From NCBI GenBank assembly GCA_021815785.1, contig JAKAZS010000006.1, positions 1-57,498 on the forward strand: DNA of 57,498 nucleotides, given 5' to 3'. Below are positions 15,233-36,641 of this stretch, one piece after another; positions within the stretch are counted from its first letter, which is position 1; the number at the start of each line of letters is the position of its first letter. Source of the stretch: a bacterium (GTDB taxonomy: Bacteria; Cyanobacteriota; Vampirovibrionia; Obscuribacterales; JAKAZS01). A program made the position numbers and the translations under genes. The notes beneath the pieces are model-generated. The model worked only from the letters and a program-made list of their open reading frames with translations. It searched no databases and was not told where the DNA came from.

Positions 15233-15988
15233 TTAAGTTAAACTAGGTAAATTGCTAGCTTTACCTAAAATAAAATGAAGTCCAATTATGATATTAAAGC
15301 TAAAGGTTAAAATACCTAAAACAATATAAATATAATTTAGCTTTTTAGAGTTTATAAAAGCGGTTTTACTAATAATGGCAATTAATGTATTGGATATTAA
15401 AAGACCAGTTACAAAAGCAAAAAGCATAATTATGGCTAAATTATTTTCTTTAATTCCACCTATACTAGTTATAATTAAAATCTGTGAACCAGTTTCAGCC
15501 CCTAAACCGTGTAATATGCCAATAAAAAAACTGGCCTGCAATCCATATTTGATAATATTTGCCGGTTTTTTAGCTTTTATGTTGAATAGTTTAAAATAAA
15601 GCCAATTGTGAATTTTTTCCCAATACTTTAAGATAATCATCCATCGACTTTGTAGTTTAAAAGTTCCTTTATGCTTAAAATTTTGAATCATTGATAATAA
15701 GACAATAAGTCCTAAAGCAATCAAGGTAAAACCAACCACCCGCTCCATAATTGGATCAATCCATTGCGGTAAAATAAGGGTGAAATACAAAGCACCTAGA
15801 CCAAGACTAGCTACAATAAAAGCATGTCCTAGAGCATACATTGAAGCAAAAAGTAAAGGTTTAAAATTTGCTGAATTATTATTGGTTGTGCTCGTAATGT
15901 CTGTTATGGCTGCAATATGGTCTAGGTCTAGACCATGACGAAAGCCTAAGATAAGAGCATTTGATAAAAGTAAAATTGGATAATTCAT
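15233..15988 (-). CDS. NiCoT/UreH-type nickel-cobalt permease
   Basis: This is a 251-residue integral membrane protein with about seven hydrophobic segments. The signature is the helix-II motif RHGLDLDHIAAITD (residues 17-30), matching the metal-binding H-x4-DH element of the NiCoT family. A second conserved segment is FFIGILHGLGAETGSQI. It starts 6 bases after cbiP ends on the same strand, so the two are co-transcribed. That context argues for cobalt uptake to feed corrin synthesis rather than nickel for urease or hydrogenase, though metal choice is inferred from context only. Confidence 0.9.
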   Translation of the reverse strand: MNYPILLLSNALILGFRHGLDLDHIAAITDITSTTNNNSANFKPLLFASMYALGHAFIVASLGLGALYFTLILPQWIDPIMERVVGFTLIALGLIVLLSMIQNFKHKGTFKLQSRWMIILKYWEKIHNWLYFKLFNIKAKKPANIIKYGLQASFFIGILHGLGAETGSQILIITSIGGIKENNLAIIMLFAFVTGLLISNTLIAIISKTAFINSKKLNYIYIVLGILTFSFNIIIGLHFILGKASNLPSLT

Positions 15989-17506: not shown

Positions 17507-17805
17507 AAATGTTAAGTCTGTTTGTTAAATACATTTTAATACTATAACATTATAAATTTTGTCCAATCAAAATGTTACATATTGACTTCTGTATAAAGGA
17601 TATGAAAAGTTTATTAATCAATAGTAACTAGCATTAAAAGTATCCTGGTATTTAATCGGTTTTAAGAAACTTAATATTACTTAAAAACCAAATTTTTATT
17701 TGCTTAACTTTGCTAAATTTAATTTGCCAAAAACATGCTTTATATGGTTAATATGAATACATATGTAATTTAAATTTTTTTTTGAGTAGATGCATTGAGT
17801 TTAAG
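17507..17805. promoter_or_regulatory. Divergent control region of the cobalamin locus
   Basis: The 299 bases between cbiP (minus) and cbiB (plus) must hold the promoters of both transcripts. I searched by eye for a B12-box riboswitch and found nothing resembling its conserved core. One feature stands out: GGTTTTAAG (17658-17666) pairs with CTTAAAAACC (17680-17689), with one extra A, across a 13-base loop, and is followed by an A/T-rich aattttta. It could be an operator dyad or an attenuator-like hairpin. Confidence 0.45.
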
Positions 17806-18717
17806 ATGAAAATTGTTTTAATATGTGTTTTGGCTTTTATCTTGGATTGGATATTAGGCGAATGGCAATACTTTCATCCTCTAGTAGGTTTTGGAACCAT
17901 TGCTAATAATCTTGAAAAAGTCATTAATCAAGGTAAATTTTTAAAAATTAAAGGTTTAATAGCGGTGTTGATTTTAGTTTTACCTCTACCATTATTTATA
18001 AGTTTTAAATTACCTGATAATTTATTTGGCCAATGTATAAGTGTTTTATGTCTTTATTTGGCTGTAGGAGCTAAAAGTTTAAAAGAGCATAGTTTAACTG
18101 TGGCTACGGCTCTTGAGCAAAAAAACTTAAATTCAGCGCGTCAAAACTTAAGTTTAATTGTTAGTCGTGATACTACAAATTTAAATGAGCATTCAATAGT
18201 TAAAGCAACTATTGAATCTGTTTTAGAAAATGGCAATGATGCGATTTTTGCACCATTATTTTGGTTCGTTCTGGCTGGACCAGCTGGCGCTATATTATTT
18301 CGCATAGTTAATACGCTTGATGCAATGTGGGGATATAAAAATATAAAATTTTTTGATTTTGGCTGGGCGGCAGCCAAAGCTGACGATCTGATGAACCTGA
18401 TTCCAGCGCGCTTAACCGCTTTTAGTTATTGTGTTTTAGGTGATTTTAAACAGGGAATTATATGTTGGCTCACTCAAGGTAATAAATGGTATTCACCTAA
18501 CGCCGGACCAGTTATGGCTAGTGGTGCGGGAGCCTTAAATTTAGCCTTAGGCGGTAATGCTGTTTATGATGGCGTCGTAAAAGTTAGACCTAAGCTTGGT
18601 GCTGGTCGAGAGCCAATTCTTAATGATATTTATTTGGCTATCAGTTTAATTGATAAAACAATTTATTTATGGCTATTGGTAATTTTAATATTTAATCTAC
18701 TGGTGAATTTATGTTAA
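17806..18717 (+). CDS. cbiB: Adenosylcobinamide-phosphate synthase (CbiB)
   Basis: CbiB is the membrane enzyme that joins aminopropanol (phosphate) to adenosylcobyric acid. The product (303 residues from the ATG at 17806) has the family landmarks ILDWILGEWQYFHPLVGFG at the N-terminus, SRDTTNLNEHSIVKATIES, NDAIFAPLFWF and GAGREP near the C-terminus, and several membrane helices. A TTG eight codons earlier (17782) is possible, but the ATG puts the conserved hydrophobic N-terminus in the usual place. It overlaps the next gene by 7 bases and begins the 15-gene cobalamin run. Confidence 0.93.
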   Translation: MKIVLICVLAFILDWILGEWQYFHPLVGFGTIANNLEKVINQGKFLKIKGLIAVLILVLPLPLFISFKLPDNLFGQCISVLCLYLAVGAKSLKEHSLTVATALEQKNLNSARQNLSLIVSRDTTNLNEHSIVKATIESVLENGNDAIFAPLFWFVLAGPAGAILFRIVNTLDAMWGYKNIKFFDFGWAAAKADDLMNLIPARLTAFSYCVLGDFKQGIICWLTQGNKWYSPNAGPVMASGAGALNLALGGNAVYDGVVKVRPKLGAGREPILNDIYLAISLIDKTIYLWLLVILIFNLLVNLC

Positions 18718-19697
18718 ATCATGGCGGCGCTATCAGCAAAGTTGCCTTAAATTACAATATTCCTGTTAGTGAGTGGCTAGATTTATCTACGGGAATCAAT
18801 TTAAATGGTTATGTTGTAAATGATATTCCTGCTAGAGCGTGGCTTAAATTACCAGATTGTGATAATGAACTTATTCAAGCCGCTAAATTGTATTATAATA
18901 CTGAATTTTTATTAAGTTGTAATGGTTCACAATCGGTTATTCAGTTATTACCACGTTTAAGAAATGTATCTAAGGTTGGCCTTGTTTTTCCTAGTTATAA
19001 TGAACACGAGTATGCTTGGTCTAAATATAATCATCAAATTAATCATATTGATCCGGATAATATATTACAGGCCGCTTATGATAATGATGTAGTAATAATT
19101 TGTAATCCTAATAATCCAAGTGGCCGATTTTATGAAGTTGAAGAACTTTTAGAATGCCACAGTATCTTAATGACCAAAAAAGGTTGGCTAATTGTTGATG
19201 AGGCTTTTATTGATACTGATAAAGCTTATAGTTTAACTAGTTTAGCAGATAAACAGGGCTTAATCGTCCTAAGGTCGATTGGTAAATTTTTTGGCTTAGC
19301 TGGAGCTAGAGTAGGTTTTGTTGTTGCTGAACCTACATTTTTAGAACTTATTCAAAATGAATTAGGCCCATGGTGCGTGGCTGGGCCTTCTCAATATATT
19401 GTTACTAAAGCATTACTGGATACAAGATGGCAAAGTGAAAATATTTTAGACTTACAACAACGTAGCCAGCGTTTAAGAAAAATACTTCTATTAAATAATT
19501 TAAGTATAGCCGGTAGTACCAATTATTTTCATTGGATTATTAATGATAAGGCTTATTTAATTCAAAATATGTTAGCTAAACAAGCCATTTGGATTAGACA
19601 TTTTGATAACCCGTTAAGTGTTCGCATAGGTATTCCAGCCTTAGAAAGTGATTGGGAAAAGTTACAATTGGCTTTAAAAAAAATTAATACTGTTTAA
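18711..19697 (+). CDS. cobD: L-threonine-O-3-phosphate decarboxylase (CobD type), PLP-dependent
   Basis: The enzyme makes aminopropanol phosphate, the linker that CbiB attaches. It is a fold-type I aminotransferase-like protein of 328 residues. The start LNHGGAISKVA, NPNNPSGRFY, VDEAFID and the PLP lysine (Lys192) in RSIGKFFGLAGARVGF are all present. Its frame overlaps the end of cbiB, so the substrate-making and substrate-using steps are translationally coupled. Histidinol-phosphate aminotransferase is the related alternative; the N-terminal HGG motif and operon context favour CobD. Confidence 0.92.
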   Translation: MLNHGGAISKVALNYNIPVSEWLDLSTGINLNGYVVNDIPARAWLKLPDCDNELIQAAKLYYNTEFLLSCNGSQSVIQLLPRLRNVSKVGLVFPSYNEHEYAWSKYNHQINHIDPDNILQAAYDNDVVIICNPNNPSGRFYEVEELLECHSILMTKKGWLIVDEAFIDTDKAYSLTSLADKQGLIVLRSIGKFFGLAGARVGFVVAEPTFLELIQNELGPWCVAGPSQYIVTKALLDTRWQSENILDLQQRSQRLRKILLLNNLSIAGSTNYFHWIINDKAYLIQNMLAKQAIWIRHFDNPLSVRIGIPALESDWEKLQLALKKINTV

Positions 19698-19841
19698 ATT
19701 ACCTTTAAGAATGGTTTGTTTCATTTCAAGAATATAATAAGTTTTATTTAATTGAGTAATAAACTGACTATTTTTAAATTATTATTTAGGATAGTTTAAA
19801 TTCACGTTCTGAAGCTTTTGAAATCGAACCAAATCACAGTT

Positions 19842-22800
19842 ATGACCCAAAATAACGCTAATAATATTGTCTTATTAAGTCATAGTGACACAGATTTAAT
19901 TACTTTGGCTAAAGTCATTGAATTACTGCCTAATAATTTCCCCGAAATTCAAGGCTTTAACTTACAGTCATTTCATGAAGATATAACCAAATTGGGTGCT
20001 ATATTAACAAAAGCTAATCTTATTATCGTTCGCTTGCTTGGCAACCTGGAGTCAATCAATAATTTTAAAATATTATTAGAAGATTTAAAAGATAAAGGTA
20101 AACACTTAATTGTTTTAAGTGGCTGCCTAGAATTTAACCCCGAATTTAATTATTTAAACCACAATGATTATTCTATAGTCGAATCGGTTAATAGTTATTT
20201 TCAAGCAGGTGGCTTCAATAATATGATTCAGTTATTTAAGTTTTTAAGTGATAAATTGTTTGGCTCTGAATATGGTTATCTTGAAGCAGAAAGTATTCCG
20301 ATGCACGGCTTTTATTATCCGCAATATAGTGGTAACGACTTTGATTTTGATGCCTTTAGAAAAATAAAAAGATATAAAGCCTCAGTCTTAATTGTTTTTT
20401 ATCGAGCTCATTATGTTAGTGGTAATGTTGATTTTATAAATCAACTGGTAGACAAGTTGAATAAGATTGGGTTAGATGCTTTGCCAGTATTTACTGCATC
20501 TTTAAGTGTTGTTGATAATGATTTTAAGATTCCGCTAGCACTTAAATTTTTAGGAGAAAATCCTGATAATAAAGTTGATATTATAATTAATACTACATCA
20601 TTTTCAGTTGCTAAATTGGGAGCTAATAGTCTTGATGCTCAGTCGGATAATTATCAAAGTCTATTTAATATACCTGTTTTGCAAGCTATTATAAGCTCTA
20701 TGGATATTAAAGAGTGGCAAAATTCAGCACGCGGGTTAAATCCTTTAGATACGGCTATGAATATTGTAATACCAGAATTTGATGGAAGAATCATAACTAA
20801 ACCGATTGCCTGTAAGGAAAAACAACAGCATATTAATTTGGAATTTTCGCTCCATAAAGCTATTGATGATAGAATTGATGCGGTTTGTAAACTGGCAAAA
20901 AAATATTGTAATTTAAAGCATAAAGATAATACTAATAAAAAAATTGCCTTTATCTTTACTAACTCAAGTGCTAAAGCCGCACAAATTGGTAATGCCGTTG
21001 GTCTTGACTCGGCTGCTTCATTAATAAATATTCTTAAAGCTATGGGAAAGACTAATTATAATGTAGGGCAATTTCCTCATACTGGTACTCAAATGTTGCA
21101 ACAATTGATTGAAGCCGGATCTTATGATACCGAAATATTAACTCAAGAACAATACAGTAAGGCTTTAGGTAGTGTCAGTTTAGATTTGTATCAGTCCTGG
21201 TTTAATGAATTACCCATAAAATTACAAAATGATATGATTGAACAATGGGGTTTGCCCCCTGGAATGGCTTATCATTACAAGGACAGCTTAATGGTAGCGG
21301 GACTTATTTTTGGTAATATGGCAATTTTATTACAGCCGCCAAGAGGTTACGGCATGGATCAAGATGCTATTTATCATAAACCCGATTTGCCACCAACGCA
21401 TCACTATTTGGCTGTTTATCGTTGGCTTAAAGAAATATTTCAGGCTGATGCTATAATTCACGTGGGCAAACATGGAACACTTGAATGGTTGCCGGGTAAA
21501 GGTGTTGGTTTGTCAAATAATTGTTTCCCTGATGCTGTTTTAGCTGATTTACCATTGTTCTACCCTTTTATAATTAACGATCCTGGCGAAGGCTGTCAGG
21601 CTAAACGACGCAGTCATGCAGCTATTGTTAATCATATGATGCCGGCTATGACTACGGCTGATACTTATGGTAGTATGGCAGAATTGGTTCAATTAATTGA
21701 TGAATACTATCAGTTGGAATTACTAGATCCATCTAAGTTACCAGCACTTCAACAACAAATTTATGATCTTATTCAACAAGCTAATTTAGAATATGATTTA
21801 GAAGTCTTATTAGCCGCTGAATTAAATGAATTAAATGAATTAAATGAATTAAATGAATTAAATGAATTAAATGAATTATATCAGGAGCCAGTAATAAGGA
21901 CTAATTTAGAGCCTAAATTAACTGATACTAATATTAAAAGTCAATTAGAAAAATTAAACAGTGTTAAATTTTCACATTTAATACAAGAAATTGATGGCTA
22001 TTTATGTGAATTGGGTCTAGCTCAAATACGTAGTGGCTTGCATACATTAGGTGTTGCTCCATGTGGCAATGACTTAGTCGATACCTTATATTCCTTAACC
22101 CGACTGCCAAATATTGATATTCCTAGTTTGCAAGCTATACTGGCTCAATATTTCAATTTTGACTTAAATGAATTACTAACCCAAAAAGGCAATAAAATTA
22201 CGAATCGAAGTAATCACGTGACTACCTTAGCTGGTAAAAATATCGTTACTTATAGTGATGCGCTTGAAGCAATTGATAAATTAGGTCATGATTTAATCTA
22301 TGAGTTAATGCTTAATAATTTTACGCTTAATAGCATTAATCTTTGTATTAATAAAATATTACCTACAGCTGATGACGAAAACAAATTGATTATTAGTGAA
22401 ATACACTCAATTTTTGAATACATTTGTCTTAATATTTATCCTAATATTTTAAATTGTAGTTTGGAAATTGATAATTTACTAAAAGGCTTAAATGGTCAAT
22501 TTATTCCACCTGGACCTAGTGGTGCTCCTACCCGAGGGATGGTTCATATTTTACCCACGGGACGAAATTTTTATTCAGTTGACCCAAACACATTGCCGTC
22601 CATGTCTAGTTGGCAAACAGGTCAATTCATGGCAGATAAAGTTATTCAACGTTATTACACTGATACTGGAGAATATCCTAAAACAATTAGTATTAGTATT
22701 TGGGGTACAAGCGTAATGCGCACCCATGGTGATGACATTGCTCAGGTCTTAGCTTTAATGGGCGTTCGGCCAGTATGGCAGAAAGAAAATCGGCGTTTGA

Positions 22801-23771
22801 CTAGTTTAGAAGTAATTCCTTTAGCTGAACTTAAACGCCCACGTATTGACGTGACTACTAGAATTAGTGGCTTTTTTCGAGATGCTTTTGGTAATTTAAT
22901 TTCTTTATTAGCTAACGCCGTAAATATTGTCATTGAACAGGATGAACCCTTAAACTTAAATTATATTAGAGCTAACTATCTTGAGGACTTAAGTAGTTAT
23001 ATTGCCATGGGTATGCCTGAAATTCAAGCTAAGGCTAAAGCAAAATATCGAATTTTTGGTTCTAAGCCAGGTAGTTATGGTGCGGGTATTTTACCATTGA
23101 TCCAAGAAAAAAACTGGCAAAATTGTGATGATTTTGCCAGAGTCTATATTAACTGGGGTGGGTATGCTTATAGTCATGAGGACTTTGGGCAAGAGGCTTT
23201 TGATGTTTATAGTTTAAGATTAAAAAATACCCAAATAGCTCTTCATAATCAAGATAATCGTGAACATGATATTTTTGATAGTGATGACTATTTTCAGTAT
23301 CATGGTGGTATGATTGCTACTATTAAAAGTTTAAGCGGAAAGACCCCGATGAGTTATTTTGGTGACAGTCAAAATCCTCAAAATGTAAAAGTTAATGATT
23401 TAAAACAAGAAGTTAATAAAGTTTTTCGTACTCGGGTTATTAATCCTAAGTGGCTTGATAGCATTCTCAGACATGGATATCGTGGTGGCGTTGAACTTAA
23501 TGCAACGGTTGATTATTTGTTTGGCTATGATGCTACCGCTAACGTTTTAGAAGACTGGATGTATGAAGCAGTTGCCCAAAACTATGTTCAAGCTAAAGAA
23601 ATTCAAGAATTCTTTCAGGCCAATAACCCGTGGGCTCTTATGGCTATATCGCAAAGACTACTTGAAGCAATTGCTCGAGGAATGTGGGTTAATCCTAGTC
23701 AAGAAACCGTCGAGGAGTTAAAACAAATTTATTTACACACAGAAGACCAATTAGAGGCTAATAATAAATGA
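19842..23771 (+). CDS. cobN: CobN-type cobaltochelatase large subunit
   Basis: CobN is the large porphyrin/corrin-binding chelatase subunit, homologous to ChlH/BchH. The protein has about 1309 residues, in the family range. Landmarks are VGLDSAASLINILKAMG, HVGKHGTLEWLPGKGVGLS, NDPGEGCQAKRRSHA, PPGPSGAPTRGM, SIWGTSVMRTHGDDIAQ and HGYRGGVELNATVDYLFGYDAT. I use the ATG at 19842; a TTG at 19818 would add eight residues, and neither has a strong ribosome-binding site. An in-frame ELN repeat sits near residue 660. The 3' end overlaps the fused AAA-VWA chelatase gene by 4 bases, so the two probably form the enzyme together. CobN and ChlH cannot be separated by motif alone, but the corrin context decides. 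Confidence 0.94.
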   Translation: MTQNNANNIVLLSHSDTDLITLAKVIELLPNNFPEIQGFNLQSFHEDITKLGAILTKANLIIVRLLGNLESINNFKILLEDLKDKGKHLIVLSGCLEFNPEFNYLNHNDYSIVESVNSYFQAGGFNNMIQLFKFLSDKLFGSEYGYLEAESIPMHGFYYPQYSGNDFDFDAFRKIKRYKASVLIVFYRAHYVSGNVDFINQLVDKLNKIGLDALPVFTASLSVVDNDFKIPLALKFLGENPDNKVDIIINTTSFSVAKLGANSLDAQSDNYQSLFNIPVLQAIISSMDIKEWQNSARGLNPLDTAMNIVIPEFDGRIITKPIACKEKQQHINLEFSLHKAIDDRIDAVCKLAKKYCNLKHKDNTNKKIAFIFTNSSAKAAQIGNAVGLDSAASLINILKAMGKTNYNVGQFPHTGTQMLQQLIEAGSYDTEILTQEQYSKALGSVSLDLYQSWFNELPIKLQNDMIEQWGLPPGMAYHYKDSLMVAGLIFGNMAILLQPPRGYGMDQDAIYHKPDLPPTHHYLAVYRWLKEIFQADAIIHVGKHGTLEWLPGKGVGLSNNCFPDAVLADLPLFYPFIINDPGEGCQAKRRSHAAIVNHMMPAMTTADTYGSMAELVQLIDEYYQLELLDPSKLPALQQQIYDLIQQANLEYDLEVLLAAELNELNELNELNELNELNELYQEPVIRTNLEPKLTDTNIKSQLEKLNSVKFSHLIQEIDGYLCELGLAQIRSGLHTLGVAPCGNDLVDTLYSLTRLPNIDIPSLQAILAQYFNFDLNELLTQKGNKITNRSNHVTTLAGKNIVTYSDALEAIDKLGHDLIYELMLNNFTLNSINLCINKILPTADDENKLIISEIHSIFEYICLNIYPNILNCSLEIDNLLKGLNGQFIPPGPSGAPTRGMVHILPTGRNFYSVDPNTLPSMSSWQTGQFMADKVIQRYYTDTGEYPKTISISIWGTSVMRTHGDDIAQVLALMGVRPVWQKENRRLTSLEVIPLAELKRPRIDVTTRISGFFRDAFGNLISLLANAVNIVIEQDEPLNLNYIRANYLEDLSSYIAMGMPEIQAKAKAKYRIFGSKPGSYGAGILPLIQEKNWQNCDDFARVYINWGGYAYSHEDFGQEAFDVYSLRLKNTQIALHNQDNREHDIFDSDDYFQYHGGMIATIKSLSGKTPMSYFGDSQNPQNVKVNDLKQEVNKVFRTRVINPKWLDSILRHGYRGGVELNATVDYLFGYDATANVLEDWMYEAVAQNYVQAKEIQEFFQANNPWALMAISQRLLEAIARGMWVNPSQETVEELKQIYLHTEDQLEANNK
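21819..21878 (+). repeat. In-frame 9-base tandem repeat inside cobN (six perfect copies)
   Basis: The unit gaattaaat is repeated six times without change from 21819 to 21872, followed by a partial copy (gaatta) to 21878. It encodes Glu-Leu-Asn six times and then Glu-Leu-Tyr. The unit is a multiple of three, so slippage changes the loop length without shifting the frame. It lies in a poorly conserved insertion between the TYGSMAELVQLIDEYYQ region and the HLIQEIDGYL region. Confidence 0.95.
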
Positions 23772-25714
23772 ATAAAATATACCCATTTTCAGCAATTGTC
23801 GGTCAGGATCAGTTAAAACAAGCGTTATTGCTTTGTGCTATTAATCCGGCTATTGGTGGCGTATTAATTATAGGTGATAAAGGTACGGCCAAAAGTACGG
23901 CTGCTAGAGCTTTAGCTAATTTATTACCGTTAATTAAGGCTAATCCTAACTGTGCCTACAATTGTGAACCTGATAATTTTGCTGCTGAATGTCATATTTG
24001 TCATGATAATCTTGATTTTAACCTCATTTCTAGTCCTTTTATTAATTTGCCTATTGGCGCTACTGAAGATAAAATAATTGGTACAATTGACCTTGAAAGA
24101 ACAATTAAAGAAGGAAAACGCGTTTTTCAACCTGGTTTACTAGCCAATGCCAATCGCGGAGTTTTGTATGTTGATGAGGTTAATTTACTGCCAGATAATT
24201 TAGTTGATATCCTTTTAGATGTAGCTGCTATGGGTGTTAATCTTGTGGCTAGAGATGGTATTATAATAAAACATCAATCTAAATTTACACTGATTGGTAC
24301 CATGAATCCTGAAGAAGGTAATTTAAGACCGCAGTTATTAGATAGATTTGGTCTTATGGTTGAAGTTCAGGCTTCAATTGACCCTGAAATTAGAACTGAA
24401 ATAATTAAACGTAGATTAAAATACGAAAGCTGTCCTGATAATTTCTTTGATATTTGGCACGTTACCGAGCTAGAATTAAAAGAACAGATTCTAAGAGCTA
24501 TAAATATTTTGCCCAATGTACAGTTATCCGATAATTTACTGTCATTTATTAGTCTGATTTGCTGTAAATTAGGCATTAAAAGTTTAAGGGCTGATATTAC
24601 TATTTCTAAGGCTAGTAAAACTTTGGCTGCTTTAGATAATCGATTAAAGGTAAATATTGATGATATTCATATAGCAAGTAAGCTTGTGCTTCCACATCGA
24701 AAACGCATTGGTCTCAATGATTCACAGGGCCTAGATAATGAATTGTTAAATGATTTAATTAATGAAGCTAAAGGGCAATCATCAACTAACAAGATTGAAT
24801 CAACAAAATCGCAATTGGATAATTCGCCTGTTAACACCGAAAATTTATCCGATAATAAATCAAATATATCTATTCGAGCAAGTGATAATGATCAAAGTAC
24901 TCATATACCATCAATTGTAAATACTGATTTGAGATTTAATTTAAACAGTAAAAATAATTTAGCTTTAAGCGGGAGTACTAGTAAAGTTAATAATCATAGG
25001 CGCGGTCATTTTATCAAAGCTATTCCAGATGAAAACCCTATTAAATTAGCTGTTAATGAGACCATTAATCATAGTTTATTAAGACATGGAAATAAACTTG
25101 AGGTCGAAAAGCAGGACTTTCACCGTCAGGAATTAATGAATAAACAGGCCAATTTAATTATATTTATTGTTGATGCATCAGGTTCAATGTCGGCTTTAAA
25201 GCGAATGGAAGTAGTAAAAGGGGCCGTACTATCACTTTTAACTGACGCCTATCAAAGAAGAGATAAAGTTGCTGTGGTAAGTTTTAAGGGTAATGATGCT
25301 AAACTAATTTTACGTCCAACCAAGTCAATAGATTTAGCAAAAAACCAGTTGACTGTTTTAGAAACTGGTGGGACTACACCTTTGGCCGCAGCGATTAATT
25401 TTGGCGTTAAACAAGCCATTTATTCTTTAAAGGAAAATTTAGATCCACTTATTATTTTTCTGACTGATGGCAAAGCCAATGTTAATTTTAATCCTAATAT
25501 TTCCCTTGAAGCTGATCTGGCTCAAGAAGCTTTAAAATTTAGTTCTTTAAATTTAAGATCCATAGTTATTGATACTGAAGATGGACCCGTTTGTTTTAAT
25601 AAAAGTGTTAGCTTGGCGAAGTTATTAAAGTCACAATATCTTAAATTAGATAAACTTACCAGTGAAAGTTTAACTTTGGCTATTAATAATTATTGTTTGC
25701 AAAGTGATTTTTGA
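23768..25714 (+). CDS. Fused ChlI-ChlD-type chelatase motor subunit (AAA+ and VWA)
   Basis: This 648-residue protein joins an AAA+ ATPase resembling ChlI/BchI to a ChlD-like von Willebrand A domain. Walker A is GDKGTAKST (36-44), Walker B is VLYVDEVNLL (near 135), and the conserved GTMNPEEGNLRPQLLDRFGL follows. A low-complexity linker (about 335-440) separates the halves. The MIDAS motif DASGSMS is near 469, with GGTTPLAAAI later. Four cysteines between Walker A and Walker B (about 58-77) are notable. It starts within the cobN stop (4-base overlap). It is the ATP-driven partner of CobN, in place of CobS-CobT. Confidence 0.94.
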   Translation: MNKIYPFSAIVGQDQLKQALLLCAINPAIGGVLIIGDKGTAKSTAARALANLLPLIKANPNCAYNCEPDNFAAECHICHDNLDFNLISSPFINLPIGATEDKIIGTIDLERTIKEGKRVFQPGLLANANRGVLYVDEVNLLPDNLVDILLDVAAMGVNLVARDGIIIKHQSKFTLIGTMNPEEGNLRPQLLDRFGLMVEVQASIDPEIRTEIIKRRLKYESCPDNFFDIWHVTELELKEQILRAINILPNVQLSDNLLSFISLICCKLGIKSLRADITISKASKTLAALDNRLKVNIDDIHIASKLVLPHRKRIGLNDSQGLDNELLNDLINEAKGQSSTNKIESTKSQLDNSPVNTENLSDNKSNISIRASDNDQSTHIPSIVNTDLRFNLNSKNNLALSGSTSKVNNHRRGHFIKAIPDENPIKLAVNETINHSLLRHGNKLEVEKQDFHRQELMNKQANLIIFIVDASGSMSALKRMEVVKGAVLSLLTDAYQRRDKVAVVSFKGNDAKLILRPTKSIDLAKNQLTVLETGGTTPLAAAINFGVKQAIYSLKENLDPLIIFLTDGKANVNFNPNISLEADLAQEALKFSSLNLRSIVIDTEDGPVCFNKSVSLAKLLKSQYLKLDKLTSESLTLAINNYCLQSDF

Positions 25715-25728
25715 GTGTTGGTATTAAA

Positions 25729-26562
25729 ATGGATAATTTCCCGCAAAATTTACAAGAACATGATTCTAGCTCTAACCAAGGAATTGTTTATTTAATTGGT
25801 GCTGGACCTGGTGACGTAGAACTTTTGACATTGCAAGCGGTAAGAATTTTGAAACTTGTAGATTTAATTTTAATTGATAGTTTGGTTAATCCAGAAGTTC
25901 TGCAATTTGCTAGACCCGATGCTCAAATAATCAATGTTGGTAAAGGCTGTGGTAAAAAATCAACACCTCAACCTGTTATTAATGATCTAATGGTAAATAA
26001 TGCTAGGCTGGGAAAAAAAATTGCCCGCTTAAAAGGCGGTGATCCCTTTATTTTTGGTCGAGGTGGTGAAGAACTTGAATATTTGCATAATAATGCTATT
26101 AAGACGCAGATTATTAGCGGGATTACATCAGGCAGTAATGTTCCGGCTTGTTTGGGTATACCGTTAACGCATCGTGATTATGCTCAATCGGTTATTTTCA
26201 TTACTGGCAGCTCCAAGAATCATACTGTTAATGTGGTTTGGAAAGATATCGCCAAACCTGACAACACTATTGTTATATTTATGGGTTTATTTAAAATTAA
26301 AGAAATTGTAACCAGTATAATTGAAGCCGGAATGCCTGCTTTAATTCCAGCTGCGGCTATTGAAAATGGTAGCCGGAAATATCAAAGGCAGATATTGGAC
26401 TGTCTTAAGGATTTACCTGAATTAGTTAATAAAGCTCAATTTATAAGCCCAACTTTAATTGTTATCGGTAAGGTTGTTACTTTATCGCCATTGTGGAAGA
26501 CTGAAAATTCATCATCTACCTCTTCTCCTTTAATTAATTCTCAAAGTGTGGTACAGTTATGA
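25729..26562 (+). CDS. cobA: Uroporphyrinogen-III C-methyltransferase (SUMT)
   Basis: CobA adds two methyl groups (C2 and C7) to uroporphyrinogen III to give precorrin-2, the entry to corrin and siroheme. The 277 residues show the tetrapyrrole methylase pattern: VYLIGAGPGDVELLTLQAVRIL at the start, RLKGGDPFIFGRGGEE (SAM/substrate loop), and SGITSGSNVPACLGIPLTHR. I start at the ATG at 25729; the TTG at 25711 would overlap the previous stop by 4 bases and add six residues ahead of a variable, polar N-terminus. It lacks the CysG dehydrogenase/chelatase half. Confidence 0.95.
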   Translation: MDNFPQNLQEHDSSSNQGIVYLIGAGPGDVELLTLQAVRILKLVDLILIDSLVNPEVLQFARPDAQIINVGKGCGKKSTPQPVINDLMVNNARLGKKIARLKGGDPFIFGRGGEELEYLHNNAIKTQIISGITSGSNVPACLGIPLTHRDYAQSVIFITGSSKNHTVNVVWKDIAKPDNTIVIFMGLFKIKEIVTSIIEAGMPALIPAAAIENGSRKYQRQILDCLKDLPELVNKAQFISPTLIVIGKVVTLSPLWKTENSSSTSSPLINSQSVVQL

Positions 26563-27230
26563 TTTATTGTGTTGGTGTTGGTCCTGGTGATAAAAAACAT
26601 ATAACTAATTATGCAGTTGAATTAATTAGCAATGCTGATGTAGTTGTTGGGTTTGAGTACGTCTTAAAAATAATTGAAACTTATCTTAAATCCAACACTA
26701 AAACCTATGTTTTAACTTATAAAATTCAGGTTAGTAAACTTGAAGAAATTGCCAGGCTCCATCACCAGGGTCTAACAGTGATTGTTGTTTTTATGGGCGA
26801 TATTCATTTTAGTGGCTTTCAATTGCTCGAACGAGTTGAATTAGCATGTGGACATAATGTTGAAACGGTTCCGGGAATTTCTTCAAGCCAAATCTTAGCA
26901 TCTAGAGCCAGAGTTTGTTTTGACGAAACTAGTTTTATCACCTTTCATCGACGTGGCAATATTGAACCTTTTAAAAAGCATTTAATTAGTATTTTGAATG
27001 ATAATCGCAATGCTATAATTATACCTAGACCATTTGATTTCATGCCTAAAGATATTGCGTGTTTTTTGTTGGATAATGGTATTGATACCACTCATCAAGT
27101 CGAGGTGTGGGAAAATTTAACCCAAGCTGAAAGCTGTTGGACTGGTTTTCTTAAGGATTTAAATCAAGATTTTAGTGATATAAGTATTATGTTAATTCGT
27201 TGTTTAGTACCAATTGTCAGTCAACTATAA
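26559..27230 (+). CDS. cbiE: Precorrin-6Y / cobalt-precorrin-7 C5-methyltransferase (CbiE), no CbiT domain
   Basis: CbiE methylates C5 of the macrocycle. The 223-residue product is one tetrapyrrole-methylase domain: IYCVGVGPGDKKHITNYAVELI, ADVVVGFEYVL, VVFMGDIHFSG, VPGISSSQILASR. It ends right after this domain. The decarboxylating methyltransferase half (CbiT), which is fused to CbiE in CobL proteins or encoded next to it, is absent here and in the rest of the locus. It overlaps cobA by 4 bases. Confidence 0.93.
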   Translation: MIYCVGVGPGDKKHITNYAVELISNADVVVGFEYVLKIIETYLKSNTKTYVLTYKIQVSKLEEIARLHHQGLTVIVVFMGDIHFSGFQLLERVELACGHNVETVPGISSSQILASRARVCFDETSFITFHRRGNIEPFKKHLISILNDNRNAIIIPRPFDFMPKDIACFLLDNGIDTTHQVEVWENLTQAESCWTGFLKDLNQDFSDISIMLIRCLVPIVSQL

Positions 27231-27234
27231 AATA

Positions 27235-28767
27235 ATGCAACAAGATTTAACTACTATAATTATAATGGGTCATGGGACTAAAGATATTGCAGGTATTAAG
27301 CAATTTGAGAATTTGGTAGACATTATAACACAGTTGTTGCCTGATAAAATAATTAAAAAGGCTTATCTAGAATTTCAATCACCCACTTTGAAAGAAGCGG
27401 TTTTAGAAAGCCTGAAAAATGGTAGTCGAAATATTATAGTGCAGCCTGCGCTGCTTATTAATGCCATGCATTCAAAAATTGATATTCCCAAGGAAATAAT
27501 ATTTTTGCGCCAAAAATATCCTAATGTCAATATTAGTTATGGAACTGCCTTAGGAATTCATTATGTAATTCTAAAGCTGTGTCGACAATTACTAATTGAG
27601 GCTATGGCCAGTTCAAACCATCAGATAAAGGCAAGTCAAACTTGTTTAGTCTTAGTTGGTCGAGGAACAACTGATCCCGATTCTAATTCTGAAATTTATA
27701 AATTGGCTCGATTGTTAGAAGAAGGTATGCATTTTCAAAGTTCGATTATTTGTTATTCCGGAACGGCTAAACCTTCTGTATTAGAGGGTCTTAAGCGCGC
27801 GATTAAACAAAACAATAAATATATTATCGTTTTTCCTTTTATGTTATTTGATGGTGTACTAGTTAAAAGAATTTATGATGCTTGTGATTTTATAGCTATG
27901 GCAAATCCTGATGTGCAATTGATTAAAGCGGCCTATTTGAATGCTAGTATTGAGCTGGCTTCAATTTTGATAGAAAGAGCTAATGAGGCAATTAATGGTA
28001 CAGCATTAATGAATTGTAGCTTATGTAAATATAATGTGCCATTAATTGGCTTTGAAAGTCAAAGTAATTCCAAGCAATCTAAACTTGTTATAAATGATTT
28101 TGAACCTTATGTAATGAATGATATAGAACGTAAAAGTTTTGAAATTATTAGTACTTCCTTTGATTGGTCGAAAGTTAATAAAGAAAATCTAGCTGTTGCG
28201 CAAAGATTAGTACATACTAGTGGTGATTATAATAATATTCAAGATTTATTCATTTCTGATGGTGCCGTAGAAATTGGTATTAGAAATTTATTGCGTTGCA
28301 AACAGATTGTAACCGATGTAACGATGGTTCAAAGTGGTATAAAAAAAGATTTACTAGCTAAATTAAAAATCAATGTATGGTGCGGTGTACATGATGAAGA
28401 AAGCTATATCATGTCTAAAGCTTTTAATATTACTCGGTCAGCAGCTGCTATGCGTAGGGCTTTTGATTTGTTTGGCAATAACATTATTTTAGCTATTGGG
28501 GATGCACCAACAGCTTTGTTTGAATGTTTAAGATTAATTAAGAATAATCACTGGCGTCCACAATTAATCATTGCTTTACCAGTCGGTTTTGTTGGCACTG
28601 TTGAATCTAAAAGTGAGTTGATAAATTGTCTGCAAATTCCCCGCATTACCAATTCTGGTCATAAAGGTGGATCGCCTTGGGCTGCTAGTGTTATAAATGT
28701 ATTGTTAATAGAAGGTATTAACTATGTCGCCCAAAGTAAAATTTTAAGTACTGAGGTTGTTAAATAA
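27235..28767 (+). CDS. cbiX/cbiC: Sirohydrochlorin cobaltochelatase fused to precorrin-8X methylmutase (CbiX-CbiC)
   Basis: The 510-residue product has two enzymes. Residues about 1-255 are a two-repeat CbiX chelatase, which inserts cobalt into sirohydrochlorin: IMGHGTKDIAG carries the catalytic His in repeat one, and LVGRGTTDPDSNSEIYKLA begins repeat two, where Arg replaces His as in long CbiX proteins. A Cys-containing linker (MNCSLCKYNVP) follows. Residues about 300-505 are CbiC, which moves the C11 methyl group to C12: RLVHTSGD with the catalytic His, MVQSGI, GDAPTALFE, NSGHKGGSPWAAS. I start at the ATG at 27235, 4 bases after cbiE. Confidence 0.94.
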   Translation: MQQDLTTIIIMGHGTKDIAGIKQFENLVDIITQLLPDKIIKKAYLEFQSPTLKEAVLESLKNGSRNIIVQPALLINAMHSKIDIPKEIIFLRQKYPNVNISYGTALGIHYVILKLCRQLLIEAMASSNHQIKASQTCLVLVGRGTTDPDSNSEIYKLARLLEEGMHFQSSIICYSGTAKPSVLEGLKRAIKQNNKYIIVFPFMLFDGVLVKRIYDACDFIAMANPDVQLIKAAYLNASIELASILIERANEAINGTALMNCSLCKYNVPLIGFESQSNSKQSKLVINDFEPYVMNDIERKSFEIISTSFDWSKVNKENLAVAQRLVHTSGDYNNIQDLFISDGAVEIGIRNLLRCKQIVTDVTMVQSGIKKDLLAKLKINVWCGVHDEESYIMSKAFNITRSAAAMRRAFDLFGNNIILAIGDAPTALFECLRLIKNNHWRPQLIIALPVGFVGTVESKSELINCLQIPRITNSGHKGGSPWAASVINVLLIEGINYVAQSKILSTEVVK

Positions 28768-31405: not shown

Positions 31406-32171
31406 CATAGGAATTTTCCCGGTACGTAAGCATGGTTTAAATATTGCTAAATTAATAAAGGCACAGTTAAACTCAACCATATATGAACCTTGGTTAGATA
31501 GCGTTAGCCTTAAAAGTCAATTTGCTAAACTTTATTTTACTCATAAACAGTGGGTTTTTATTGGTGCAAACGCTATAGCCTTACGATTTCTTAATGGTAT
31601 TATTAGCCATAAAAAAATCGATCCTGCTGTAGTAGTGGTAGATGAAGCTGCCAGGTATTCGATTAGTTTACTCTCCGGGCACGAAGGTGGAGCTAATAAT
31701 TTGGCTTATACTGTGGCAAATATTATAAATGCTTTACCGGTTATAACTACTGCCTCAGAGACCCTCAAACCTCTAGTTATTGGTATTGGTTGTCGCAAGG
31801 GCGTTAGTGTTAATACTATTGAACAAGCTTGCCTAAAGGCTTATCCTGGTTTGAACTTTAATGAAGTAAGGTTAGTGACAACTATTGATATAAAACGCAA
31901 TGAATTAGGGTTGCAAGATTTCTGTGTTAAGCATAATTTAAATTTACTGATATTTTCACAACTAGCTATTGCTAACCGACAATGGTATAAAACCAAGTCG
32001 CAATTTGTTAAAAAAATCACAGGATCCTATAGTGTCTGTGAACCATGTGCTTTAATGGCTGGCAATCAAAGTCAGTTAATAGTTTCTAAATCAGTCTATA
32101 ACGGTGTGGCTATTGCCATCGCCAAAGATCTAAATTTACCAGATTCTAATTTTTTTAAGGAAGAGTTATGA
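31398..32171 (+). CDS. cbiG: Cobalt-precorrin-5A hydrolase (CbiG), middle domain missing
   Basis: CbiG opens the ring lactone of cobalt-precorrin-5A and releases acetaldehyde in the anaerobic route. The product has 257 residues from the ATG at 31398; usual family members have about 330-350. The N-terminal domain (VDEAARYSISLLSGHEGGANNLA) runs through PVITTASETL. The C-terminal CobE-like domain (VIGIGCRKGVS) then begins within four residues, so the middle domain is cleanly absent with no frameshift. A TTG at 31335 would extend the frame 21 codons into cbiF; I reject it because the extension is an ordinary shadow of cbiF. Confidence 0.92.
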   Translation: MNDIGIFPVRKHGLNIAKLIKAQLNSTIYEPWLDSVSLKSQFAKLYFTHKQWVFIGANAIALRFLNGIISHKKIDPAVVVVDEAARYSISLLSGHEGGANNLAYTVANIINALPVITTASETLKPLVIGIGCRKGVSVNTIEQACLKAYPGLNFNEVRLVTTIDIKRNELGLQDFCVKHNLNLLIFSQLAIANRQWYKTKSQFVKKITGSYSVCEPCALMAGNQSQLIVSKSVYNGVAIAIAKDLNLPDSNFFKEEL

Positions 32172-33700
32172 GTGGAGTCTTATATTTAATTTCAGTTGGT
32201 CCAGGTAATATTAACCAAATGACGTTAGCTTCTATTGAAGCTTTAAATAAATCGAATGTGGTTATAGGTTATGGTCTATATTTTAAATGGATCAAACCAC
32301 TTTTAGTTAATCAAGAAATTATTGACTTACCTTTAACTCAAGAAAAACAAAGAGCTGAACTGGCGATTACCAGAGTTAGATCTGGTGAATCTGTGGCCGT
32401 TATATCTAGTGGTGATATTGGTATTTATGGTATGGCCAGTTTGATATTTGAAACCATGGCTGATACAGACGATTTTATTGTTAAAGTTTTACCTGGTGTA
32501 AGTGCTGCAAATGCTACAGCTTCGTTGTTAGGAGCGCCATTGGCGCACGACTTTGCTTGTTTAAGTTTATCAGATCTGCTTTGCCCTTGGCAGTGGATAG
32601 AAGATCGAGCCAGAAACTTAGCTAAATGTGATATGGTTATTGCTTTATATAATGTGCAAAGTAAAACAAGAATTAATGGTATTTATAAAATATTAAATTT
32701 ATTACTTGAATTTAAGCCTAGTGATACTATTTGCGGTATTGTATCTAACGCCTATCGCGAGAATCAAAGTATAATTAAATGTAGTTTAATTGAATTATTA
32801 GACAAAACTTTTGATATGTATACAACAATAATTATTGGCAATAAATTTACAACGCAAAAACAAAGTTTTATATACACACCTAGGGGTTATAATGATTTTA
32901 AAGTTAATACCACTAAGAATATTCCTAAAAATTCAATTTGGTTGTTTGCTGGTACTAGTGATGGTAATGAATTGGCCAATAAATTGGCTGATTTAAATTA
33001 TTCAGTCATAATTTCAACGGCAACATCATATGGAATGGCTAATGCTAAAATTAACTGTCCTAATTCAATTGTTATAAACAGTTTATTAACTCCTCATGAC
33101 CGTTTTAACTATATAAAGGATAGTGCTAAATATATTATTGATGCCACTCATCCTTTTGCCGTAAATATATCTAAACAACTCATGGATATTAGTCATAATC
33201 TTAAGATTCCTTATTTAAGATACGAAAGGCCAGTAGTTACTAATTATAAGAAGTCTCTATTGGTGGATTCCTGTCAGGAGGCTATGGCTATGGCTAAAAA
33301 TTTTGGAAAAAATATTTTTTTGGCTATAGGAATTAAAAATTTAGAAATTTTTCTAAAAGATCAAGATGTTAATCATAAAAATTTGTTTTTACGTTGTTTG
33401 CCTTTTAGTGGTTCAATTGATAAAGCCTTAAATCTTGGCATTTTACCAGAAAATATAATTGCCATGCAAGGGCCATATAGTTCTTCGTTTAATAAGGTTT
33501 TATGGGAAAACTGGAAAATTAATTGTGTAATAACCAAAGAATCTGGTCTTGAAGGTGGTTTATCTGAAAAAATTGAAGCTTGTGAAAATTTAAATATACC
33601 GCTTATCGTAATTAAACGACCTGATGTAGCTTATATAAATAAATATAATTCTTTGGCTGATATTGTTTCAGCCATCAATAAACTGGAGGTAATATCATGA
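32168..33700 (+). CDS. cbiH/cbiJ: Precorrin-3B C17-methyltransferase fused to precorrin-6A reductase (CbiH-CbiJ)
   Basis: The 510-residue product has two parts. Residues 1 to about 245 are the ring-contracting CbiH/CobJ methyltransferase (LYLISVGPGNINQMTLASIEAL, SSGDIGIYGMASL, LPGVSAANATASLLGAPLAHDF). Residues about 255-510 are a CbiJ/CobK reductase (WLFAGTSDGNELANKLADL for the nucleotide fold, DATHPFAVNIS, YLRYERP). The fusion joins non-consecutive steps. It overlaps cbiG by 4 bases and cobW by 4. Confidence 0.94.
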   Translation: MSGVLYLISVGPGNINQMTLASIEALNKSNVVIGYGLYFKWIKPLLVNQEIIDLPLTQEKQRAELAITRVRSGESVAVISSGDIGIYGMASLIFETMADTDDFIVKVLPGVSAANATASLLGAPLAHDFACLSLSDLLCPWQWIEDRARNLAKCDMVIALYNVQSKTRINGIYKILNLLLEFKPSDTICGIVSNAYRENQSIIKCSLIELLDKTFDMYTTIIIGNKFTTQKQSFIYTPRGYNDFKVNTTKNIPKNSIWLFAGTSDGNELANKLADLNYSVIISTATSYGMANAKINCPNSIVINSLLTPHDRFNYIKDSAKYIIDATHPFAVNISKQLMDISHNLKIPYLRYERPVVTNYKKSLLVDSCQEAMAMAKNFGKNIFLAIGIKNLEIFLKDQDVNHKNLFLRCLPFSGSIDKALNLGILPENIIAMQGPYSSSFNKVLWENWKINCVITKESGLEGGLSEKIEACENLNIPLIVIKRPDVAYINKYNSLADIVSAINKLEVIS

Positions 33701-34749
33701 GTATAAAAATTCCTATAACAATTTTTACGGGAATTTTAGGTTCGGGCAAAACTACGATTATTTCAAATTTGTCCTTACAAAATACTGATTTTAAAATTGC
33801 TTTAATTGTTAATGAATATGGTGTTACAAGTATTGATAGTATTATTTTTAAGAAATTAAACAATAATAATCTTATAATTCATGAAATAAACAATGGATTA
33901 ATTGCTTATGCTGGTAGTGACAATTTTGAAAATATTTTAAAATCAATTATTACTGATAAATACAAAATAGATCATGTCATAATTGAAACGTCAGGTTTAG
34001 CTGTGCCGTCAGCTATTTGGAGTGTACTGGAAAATAACAATTATTTTGATACTTTTTTTATTGATGCAACTATTGCCGTGATTGATACCCCTTTATTATT
34101 AAAGGGGTATTATGATACTAATCAGGTTGTTTCAGAAATATTTTTGCAACAGCTTATTAATTCCGATATTGCTGTATTAAATAAAGTTGATAATTTAACT
34201 AAATTTGATTTGACATTGGCTGAACAATTAATTCGAAAAAAAGCTAATAATTTAAGGTTTATTGAGTTGGCTTATCATGGAAATCTAGATTTAGAGTTAG
34301 CTTTAGGCCTTAACTTGCATACTGTTATTAATTCCAATATTAGCAATTACGCTGTTAAAACTATACCAAATAATTTGAATGGACATCGTCATTCTAATCT
34401 TGAACCTCATGACCACGGTTTGTTAACACATGAGCACATTCATGAACACGATCCTGCCTGGTTGTCATTTATGCTTACAAGTTATGAAAAACAAAATTTT
34501 GAAATTGTGGAATCGGCACTTCATAAAGTAATTTGTCAACAAAATATTTTTAGAGTTAAAGGTTATATCATTACTAAAGAAGCAACAATTTATGAATTTC
34601 AATCAGTACCTAATAAAGTTTATTCTTTGCCAATAGATAATTTGTCATTATCGATTGAACAAAGCCAACTTGTTTTTATTGGACGTGATATTGACCGGCA
34701 TCATATTGAGCATCAGTTATCTGATTTAACTAGTACATCATGGAGTTAA
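33697..34749 (+). CDS. cobW: CobW-family metal-handling GTPase, CXCC motif missing
   Basis: CobW/COG0523 GTPases are metallochaperones or metal-insertion proteins; in this locus cobalt delivery is the likely role. The 350 residues have the P-loop GILGSGKT (12-19), IETSGLAVP and the guanine-specificity motif NKVD. The conserved metal site ELxNGCxCC is here EINNGLIAYAG (63-73), with no cysteine at all. A His-rich stretch (about 229-252, HRHSN...HDHG...HEHIHEHD) is kept and may bind metal instead. It overlaps cbiH-cbiJ by 4 bases and precedes cobO by 6. Confidence 0.92.
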   Translation: MSIKIPITIFTGILGSGKTTIISNLSLQNTDFKIALIVNEYGVTSIDSIIFKKLNNNNLIIHEINNGLIAYAGSDNFENILKSIITDKYKIDHVIIETSGLAVPSAIWSVLENNNYFDTFFIDATIAVIDTPLLLKGYYDTNQVVSEIFLQQLINSDIAVLNKVDNLTKFDLTLAEQLIRKKANNLRFIELAYHGNLDLELALGLNLHTVINSNISNYAVKTIPNNLNGHRHSNLEPHDHGLLTHEHIHEHDPAWLSFMLTSYEKQNFEIVESALHKVICQQNIFRVKGYIITKEATIYEFQSVPNKVYSLPIDNLSLSIEQSQLVFIGRDIDRHHIEHQLSDLTSTSWS

Positions 34750-34755
34750 TAAATA

Positions 34756-35355
34756 ATGGATGATGAAAATATTTATTTAAATAAAGCAAAAATACACAAA
34801 GAAGTTTTTGAAAGTAAAAAGGCCAAGGCCATTAAAGAAAAAGGTTTAATTATAGTTTATACAGGATCTGGTAAAGGTAAGACTACAGCAGCTCTAGGTA
34901 TGGCTGTTAGAATTTTAGGGCATAATATGAATTTAGGTGTTATCCAATTTATTAAAGGTGCTTTAAATACTGCTGAAAGAAATTTTTTTTTGAACTATAA
35001 AAATTGTGTATTTAAATCTATGGGTGACGGCTATACTTGGAACACACAAAATCGAAATCAAGATATTGTTTCAGCAAATCGAGCCTGGACTTTAGCTCAG
35101 GGAATGATAACTAGTAATACTTTTGATATGATAATTTTAGATGAATTAAATATTATCCTTAAGCATAAATATCTAGATGAAGCAGAAATTATAAATTTTT
35201 TAATTAATAAGCCAGCCCATTTACATATTGTTATTACTGGTCGTAATGCTTCAACTGAATTAATTAAGATAGCTGATTTGGTCAGTGAAGTTAAATGTAT
35301 TAAACATCCTTATCAGGAGCAAGGAATTAAAGCTCAACGTGGGATTGAGTTTTAA
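34756..35355 (+). CDS. cobO: Corrinoid adenosyltransferase (CobO/BtuR type)
   Basis: CobO transfers the 5'-deoxyadenosyl group of ATP to reduced cobalt of the corrinoid. The 199 residues contain the P-loop YTGSGKGKTTAALGMAVRILG preceded by a basic helical N-terminus. GVIQFIKGALNTAE, GDGYTWNTQNR, DMIILDELN and HIVITGRNAS are the family blocks. It shares one base with the start of cbiA. Confidence 0.96.
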   Translation: MDDENIYLNKAKIHKEVFESKKAKAIKEKGLIIVYTGSGKGKTTAALGMAVRILGHNMNLGVIQFIKGALNTAERNFFLNYKNCVFKSMGDGYTWNTQNRNQDIVSANRAWTLAQGMITSNTFDMIILDELNIILKHKYLDEAEIINFLINKPAHLHIVITGRNASTELIKIADLVSEVKCIKHPYQEQGIKAQRGIEF

Positions 35356-36641
35356 TGTCAAAGAAGGCTTTATCTTTGTTAATTAGTGGTATTGCTTCCA
35401 ATCAAGGCAAAACTACCATAACTGCTTGTCTTGCCTATAAATTGAGAAAATGCGGGTATAAAGTTCAGGTTTTTAAAATTGGTCCAGATTTTCTCGACCC
35501 TCAAATATTAGAATTTGCTTCAGGTAATCCGGTTAAACAACTAGACCTATGGATGGTTGGGCACAATAACTGTGTACGGCTTTTATACGAAGCTTATATT
35601 TCTATGGATTATATTTTAATTGAAGGTGTTATGGGGCTTTATGATGGCATACCTTCTACAGCGGATTTAGCCATAGCTTTTAATATACCGGTAATAGCCA
35701 TTATTGATGCCAGTTCCATGGCGCAAAGTTTTGCAGCTTTGGCTTATGGTTTAGTTAACTATAATAATAAAATTAATTTATGTGGTGTCTTGGCTAATAG
35801 AATAGCCAGTGACCATCATTTAAATTTAATTCATAATAGTGATTTTAAAGGGGTTAAATTTTTAGGTGGTATTGAAGAAAATTCTAAAATTGCCATAAAT
35901 TCAAGGCATCTTGGTCTTTGCCAGGCGAAGGAAATACCTGATTTAATTTCCAAGCTTGAATCAGGTATTGAGCTTATCGACAAATGTAAGTTAATTAATT
36001 GTTTTGAGCCTATTGAATTTGCTAAAGTCAAGCCGATAAAATCTTTTTCAAGAAGTTTAAAAAATAAAAAAATTGGCATTGCCAAAGACTTGGCATTTTC
36101 CTTTTTATATTCGCAAAATATTAACGTTTTAGAAAAATTAGGGGCTAAAATTGTATTTTTTTCAGTATTAAATGATAAAAAAATACCTGATATTGATTCT
36201 TTGTATTTACCCGGTGGGTACCCTGAATTACACTTAAAAGCGCTTGAAGAAAATATAAGTATGCAAGCTTCGATAATTATGCATTATCAATCAAATAAAA
36301 AAATATACGCAGAATGTGGTGGTATGCTCTATTTAATGGAAAGCTTAACCGACACAAAGGGGAATAGCGCTAAACTAACTAGTATTATTCCTGGACAAGC
36401 TGTTATGCAAAGTAAAATTAGCAGTTTAGGGTATCAAGAATTAGCAACATCATTTGGCAATATCCGTGGCCATACATTTCATTATTCTAATAGTAAGATT
36501 AATTTATATCCATTGGCTGTAGCCAAATACCCTAATAAAAATATTGACGGTGAAGCTATATATAAAATTAATTCTTTAACAGCTACTTATTGTCATTTCT
36601 ATTTTGATTCTAATATTGATTTTGTGGCAAGTTTATTTTAA
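35355..36641 (+). CDS. cbiA: Cobyrinic acid a,c-diamide synthase (CbiA/CobB)
   Basis: CbiA amidates side chains a and c with glutamine and ATP. The 428 residues show the N-terminal P-loop ISGIASNQGKTTITACLAYKL, FKIGPDFLDPQ, EGVMGLYDG and the C-terminal class I amidotransferase with LPGGYPEL and the nucleophile in YAECGGMLYLMESL. Its size and GPDFLDP separate it from CbiP. It is last in the run; the 146-base gap to the convergent mqnC shows no clear terminator hairpin. Confidence 0.96.
   Translation: MSKKALSLLISGIASNQGKTTITACLAYKLRKCGYKVQVFKIGPDFLDPQILEFASGNPVKQLDLWMVGHNNCVRLLYEAYISMDYILIEGVMGLYDGIPSTADLAIAFNIPVIAIIDASSMAQSFAALAYGLVNYNNKINLCGVLANRIASDHHLNLIHNSDFKGVKFLGGIEENSKIAINSRHLGLCQAKEIPDLISKLESGIELIDKCKLINCFEPIEFAKVKPIKSFSRSLKNKKIGIAKDLAFSFLYSQNINVLEKLGAKIVFFSVLNDKKIPDIDSLYLPGGYPELHLKALEENISMQASIIMHYQSNKKIYAECGGMLYLMESLTDTKGNSAKLTSIIPGQAVMQSKISSLGYQELATSFGNIRGHTFHYSNSKINLYPLAVAKYPNKNIDGEAIYKINSLTATYCHFYFDSNIDFVASLF

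Follow-up and report, generated by a model that had tools for sequence, protein, structure and literature searches.

The best described relatives of the GTPase reported here are the classical CobW proteins (TIGR02475) of Rhodobacter capsulatus and Pseudomonas denitrificans, Co(II) chaperones that feed the cobaltochelatase CobNST under GTP control (PMC7895991, PMC10206600). With MgGTP bound, CobW holds Co(II) in a tetrahedral, thiol-rich site with an affinity of about 30 pM, which is more than 1000-fold weaker with GDP; CobNST alone competes poorly for cobalt, and the early route through CbiK is chaperone-free (PMC7895991, PMC7689651, PMC10206600). The CxCC motif, presumed to be the cobalt site of CobW, has been said to occur in every COG0523 protein (PMC2770081, PMC7895991). 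Two exceptions are known, neither described as a CobW of a B12 operon: Rv0106 of M. tuberculosis, in which both GTPase motifs and one cysteine are absent (PMC2770081), and CobW3 of Cupriavidus metallidurans, which has no GCxCC, a large C-terminal His region and no GTPase activity, and is linked to ZupT and zinc (PMC11340326).

Here we describe a CobW-like G3E GTPase without CxCC, termed CobWv, encoded in a B12 operon within a 57,498-nucleotide stretch of DNA (the window; Table 1). Judging by other members of its phylum, the window probably belongs to a cyanobacterial relative that does not photosynthesise. Its open reading frame is complete from ATG to TAA and uninterrupted, and the product matches the Pfam cobW domain (PF02492, 112 bits, above the cut-off) and CobW_C (PF07683, 35 bits against a cut-off of 22), the C-terminal domain of COG0523, while its score against the TIGR02475 CobW equivalog is 133 bits where the cut-off is 332. 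The COG0523 GTPase motifs (Walker A, Walker B, NKxD) are invariant or nearly so in the 69 variants compared below. The GTPase motifs of the window protein (GILGSGKTT, ETSG and NKVD) and its loop of eight histidines (His-rich stretch at residues 230-251) are intact, in line with the initial annotation. That annotation had also read residues 63-73 as EINNGLIAYAG in place of the family's ELxNGCxCC, and this held up both in the reading frame and in an alignment to E. coli YjiA, where L68, A70 and Y71 occupy the places of the three CxCC cysteines; the CxCC that COG0523 proteins carry between switch I and Walker B is absent. The sole cysteine left, C280, is distant in sequence from that site. No other COG0523 protein is present in the window's genome, which excludes a redundant copy beside a classical CobW; the remaining PF02492 matches there look, from reading the sequences, like HypB, MeaB/ArgK and a Der-type GTPase.

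Table 1. Features of cobWv and its surroundings, in positions of the window.
Feature	Position	Strand	Basis
cobWv, CobW-like G3E GTPase without CxCC, 350 aa	33697..34749	+	ORF and Pfam/TIGR profiles
P-loop region IFTGILGSGKTT (Walker A)	33721..33756	+	G12, G15, G17, K18, T19 and T20 invariant (69/69)
EINNGLIAYAG, at the position of ELxNGCxCC; Y71 in the place of the last cysteine	33883..33915	+	alignment
HVIIETSGLAVP (Walker B / G3)	33973..34008	+	sequence and variant alignment
LNKVDN (G4, guanine specificity)	34177..34194	+	sequence and variant alignment
His-rich loop GHRHSNLEPHDHGLLTHEHIHEHDPAWLSF, proposed metal site	34381..34470	+	seven histidines fixed in 68/69 variants
cobN, large cobaltochelatase subunit, proposed client	19818..23771	+	TIGR02257, 1207 bits; co-occurrence
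chlID-like cobaltochelatase AAA+/VWA subunit	23768..25714	+	TIGR02442, 677 bits, under its cut-off
cbiX-cbiC fusion, sirohydrochlorin chelatase (early cobalt insertion) and precorrin-8X methylmutase	27214..28767	+	Pfam CbiX, CbiC
cbiH/cobJ-cbiJ/cobK fusion, immediately 5' of cobWv, 4-base overlap	32168..33700	+	profile matches
cobO, corrinoid adenosyltransferase, immediately 3' of cobWv	34756..35355	+	profile matches
cbiA/cobB, a,c-diamide synthase	35355..36641	+	profile match
possible NicO-kind Ni/Co transporter, near operon, adjoins cobQ	15233..15988	-	PF03824, 21.4 bits (cut-off 27.7)

YjiA, also a COG0523 protein (PDB 1NIJ, 4IXM, 4IXN), is the top solved-structure match to CobWv in both sequence and fold. 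Its metal site (E37, C66 and C67, changed in 4IXN) corresponds to V38, A70 and Y71 of CobWv; the top PDB match was the YjiA mutant with C66 and C67 made alanine. The nickel G3E GTPases HypB and UreG, which have His-rich stretches, are likewise among the G3E fold matches. Their His stretches serve metal storage or delivery, and these proteins have no CobW_C domain, serve other clients and use a nucleotide-gated site with other ligands. With classical CobW, CobWv shares the G3E GTPase and CobW_C domains, a His-containing loop with H249 and D252, and a cobN-bearing B12 operon; it differs in having no CxCC, no second cysteine pair and seven fixed histidines, and in occurring in an operon of the CbiX/CbiD/CbiG type. 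It can be likened to CobW3, by description only, as a COG0523 protein with a His-rich region and no GCxCC (PMC11340326), but judged by sequence features and gene context it falls outside the CobW3 type, since its GTPase motifs are intact, its fixed loop lies inside the protein and its gene is part of a B12 operon.

For conservation analysis, we aligned 69 variants: the window protein, its sister-species ortholog, and 67 more from the window's order, the methanotroph order of Methylovulum, the Herbaspirillum family and Deinococcus plasmids. The initial annotation had proposed comparing the motif position in related CobW proteins; CxCC occurs in 0/69 variants and is present in more distant matches. 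Y71 is kept in all 69 and A70 in 68, and 25 of the 69 have no cysteine at all and also miss the second cysteine pair known from CobW (PMC7895991). Positions E97, T98, S99, N162 and K163 are unchanged throughout (69/69). Between the GTPase and C-terminal domains lies a fixed variant motif, HxHSGLxxHxHGLxTHxHxHExDPxW, in which H247 and W255 are found in 69/69 variants and H230, H232, H238, H240, H245, H249 and D252 each in 68/69, the lone exception to the His motif being a degenerate copy in the genome G041; the thiols of the site are all absent. An alignment dominated by classical CobW gives a different picture of the loop region, with only H249, H251 and D252 standing out. CobWv is a genuine, conserved version of CobW without the family-defining cysteine motif.

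The variant is also widespread. Beyond the sister species, eight more orthologs in the window's order lack CxCC, and other COG0523 proteins of that order carry it. A GTDB scan returned two further CxCC-less matches, in Methylovulum psychrotolerans and Herbaspirillum rhizosphaerae, with CxCC present in the remaining 78. Profile searches then detected CobWv in 27 of 301 methanotroph-order genomes and in 63 of the 394 from the Herbaspirillum family, and the 56 loci read from these searches all have G(L/F)IAY and no CxCC (56/56); complete variants scored about 440-545 bits, and the top non-variant seen scored 210. Plasmids of three Deinococcus species carry cobWv, annotated merely as 'GTP-binding protein'. 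Among 386 genomes of the window's phylum, there was no variant-level match apart from the window's own, and all 29 other loci read have CxCC (29/29), so a loss common in the phylum is rejected. A phage collection gave partial, weaker matches only, and a literature search covering few subscription journals found no paper describing the CobWv clade. In a tree built without the motif and loop columns, the 31 variants sampled form a single clade (31/31, support 100/100), which joins classical CobW (itself supported at 94/86) in a clade with support of 100/99, apart from other COG0523 proteins. A single change of state is enough to account for the tree sample, and the scattered occurrence of the variant suggests that its operon was passed on by horizontal transfer. 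Because the loss is fixed throughout a widespread clade that goes with a single type of B12 operon, it is old; the one-off oddity implied by the initial annotation was mistaken.

The order cobN-chlID-cobA-cbiE-cbiX/C-cbiD-cbiL-cbiF-cbiG-cbiH/J-cobWv-cobO-cbiA is repeated in the window's order; Herbaspirillum has the same order minus cobA, and Methylovulum also has no cobO at that place. In the methanotroph order and Herbaspirillum family, cbiH/J lies directly upstream of cobWv in 53 of 57 loci, the other four giving downstream matches only, and in Deinococcus deserti cobWv is followed by a NicO transporter, bluB and cobN. The cbiH-cbiJ and cbiX-cbiC fusions are kept with the operon in proteobacteria. 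Across positions 19818-28767, the operon encodes two chelatases: early-insertion CbiX, as part of a fusion with CbiC and near CbiD and CbiG, and late-type CobN-ChlID. An in-frame (NEL)x6 repeat in cobN (21825-21878) could be slippage-prone. Rfam detected no cobalamin riboswitch in the window, including the region 5' of the operon (17400-19900).

CobWv resembles CobW in having a His stretch and in being encoded in a gene cluster that includes cobN, and the presence of CobWv follows that of CobN. In the methanotroph order (301 genomes), 26 of the 27 CobWv genomes have CobN, and the remaining cobWv is cut by a contig end; in the window's order the two occur together in 10 genomes (10/11 CobWv genomes), with one of each alone. 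Fisher tests gave p = 7e-21 and 6e-9 for the two orders, values that overstate the association because shared ancestry and operon linkage are ignored; the co-occurrence may mirror linkage, both genes being in one operon. One genome, G469, lacks CobWv but encodes a CobN of the same high-scoring type, and beside its cobN lies a CxCC-bearing CobW (453 bits; L214, C104:10417-11457). None of the CobWv genomes in the methanotroph-order set has a CobW above the cut-off. It looks as if two forms of CobW replace each other in a single role.

We consider it somewhat probable that CobWv is a GTPase that acquires Co(II) and delivers it to the CobN-ChlID of its own operon, with histidines in place of the CxCC thiolates. 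As in classical CobW, Co(II) would be acquired by the GTPase, with ligands most likely drawn from the histidines of the fixed loop. On binding MgGTP this loop would order over the switch region, and on GTP hydrolysis it would let go of the metal, which would pass to the cobaltochelatase encoded alongside. The genomic record directly shows the sequence state and its conservation in several lineages, purifying selection, the place in the operon, the co-occurrence with CobN and the descent as sister of CobW; that CobWv binds Co(II), does so through histidines under the control of GTP and serves CobN is inferred. Seven histidines keep the same spacing in 68/69 variants, which makes a His-based site the best inference, and cobalt is probably handled through histidines; of the two options offered by the initial annotation, histidine-based metal handling is favoured over a changed function. 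The fuller proposal of a GTP-switched cobalt chaperone with a thiol-free acquisition site of His and carboxylate ligands, a second way to load CobN, is more tentative, with its chances close to evenly balanced. Several points count against the chaperone explanation as a whole. In relatives, His loops may serve to hand over or store metal and not to acquire it, the operon's CbiX could insert cobalt early and chaperone-free, and a His site is expected to be weaker than the 30 pM thiol site. AlphaFold models the G and C domains of the window protein with confidence and gives pLDDT below 50 at 211-253, with the loop of the Herbaspirillum protein likewise disordered at 219-277; only three variants were in these alignments.

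The best surviving rival, which we nonetheless regard as unlikely, makes CobWv a metal-free G-protein chaperone of the MeaB kind, in which GTP would gate the transfer of a corrinoid intermediate or the assembly of a chelatase/CobO complex, and the His loop would either bind a protein or supply an axial ligand for a cobalt corrinoid. All thiols defining the metal site are gone, the adenosyltransferase gene cobO comes next in the window's order, and MeaB is among the fold matches of CobWv. Yet seven fixed histidines are hard to account for without a metal, cobO is not beside cobWv in Methylovulum or Deinococcus, classical CobW takes the place of CobWv in G469, and phylogeny makes CobWv the sister of CobW, not MeaB-like. 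The window protein had no match to a MeaB profile at E 0.001, showing CobW-type domains instead, and its gene belongs to a B12 synthesis operon, where MeaB/MMAA proteins are linked to a B12-dependent mutase. Quite improbable, too, is a cobalt/nickel buffer, store or sensor with a His loop that would bind metals independently of GTP, a role proposed for CobW3. That protein, too, has no GCxCC and binds several metals via its His-rich region (PMC11340326), but it shows no GTPase activity and its C-terminal tail is disordered, whereas CobWv has every GTPase motif, an internal loop of fixed spacing and a B12 operon.

A Co(II) chaperone serving not CobN but CbiX, the chelatase for early insertion that is fused to CbiC, is very doubtful. 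The operons of Methylovulum, Herbaspirillum and the window's order do include the cbiX-cbiC fusion; against this reading, only 1 of 54 methanotroph-order genomes with CbiD and without CobN has CobWv, a contig-edge gene, and G039 of the window's order has CbiD but neither CobN nor CobWv. CobWv presence tracks CobN, not the early-insertion marker CbiD, and CbiK, the early chelatase that has been studied, works without a chaperone (PMC10206600).

Decay of cobWv, or a local sequencing or assembly error, is almost certainly wrong, for although one relative (G041) is plainly degenerate, independent genomes and 68 relatives are in the same state and dN/dS is low. The sister-species ortholog (G002, same genus, separate genome) is 94% identical and shares the loss; it has a cysteine at G67, yet still no CxCC. 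Between the two species, dN/dS is 0.0265/0.2266 = 0.12, comparable to the 0.05 to 0.24 of the adjoining B12 genes, which rejects decay. Sequencing error or frameshift is excluded because the frame is open and this separate genome and 67 further relatives also lack CxCC, and chance loss because CxCC is in none of the 69 variants but in all 78 more distant GTDB matches and 29 phylum-search loci. Neither the sequencing error nor the gene decay in relatives that the initial annotation had raised against its own reading was borne out. The G041 copy (L122:2170-3273) has lost about 30 aa from switch I to the CxCC region, has ETSE for ETSG, and has a new His-rich stretch near the C-terminus, its His motif being gone; that genome is 65% complete, with neither CobN nor CbiD detected.

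For the family, CxCC is unsafe as a recognition mark for its members, as used in the search of Haas et al., and if our reading is true, the published view of CxCC as universal in COG0523 no longer holds. A thiol-free site, if real, might prefer Co(II) to Zn(II) and be resistant to oxidation. With a constrained sister clade of CobW that lacks CxCC and shares the same chelatase, the basis of cobalt selectivity becomes directly testable by comparing thiol and thiol-free CobW.
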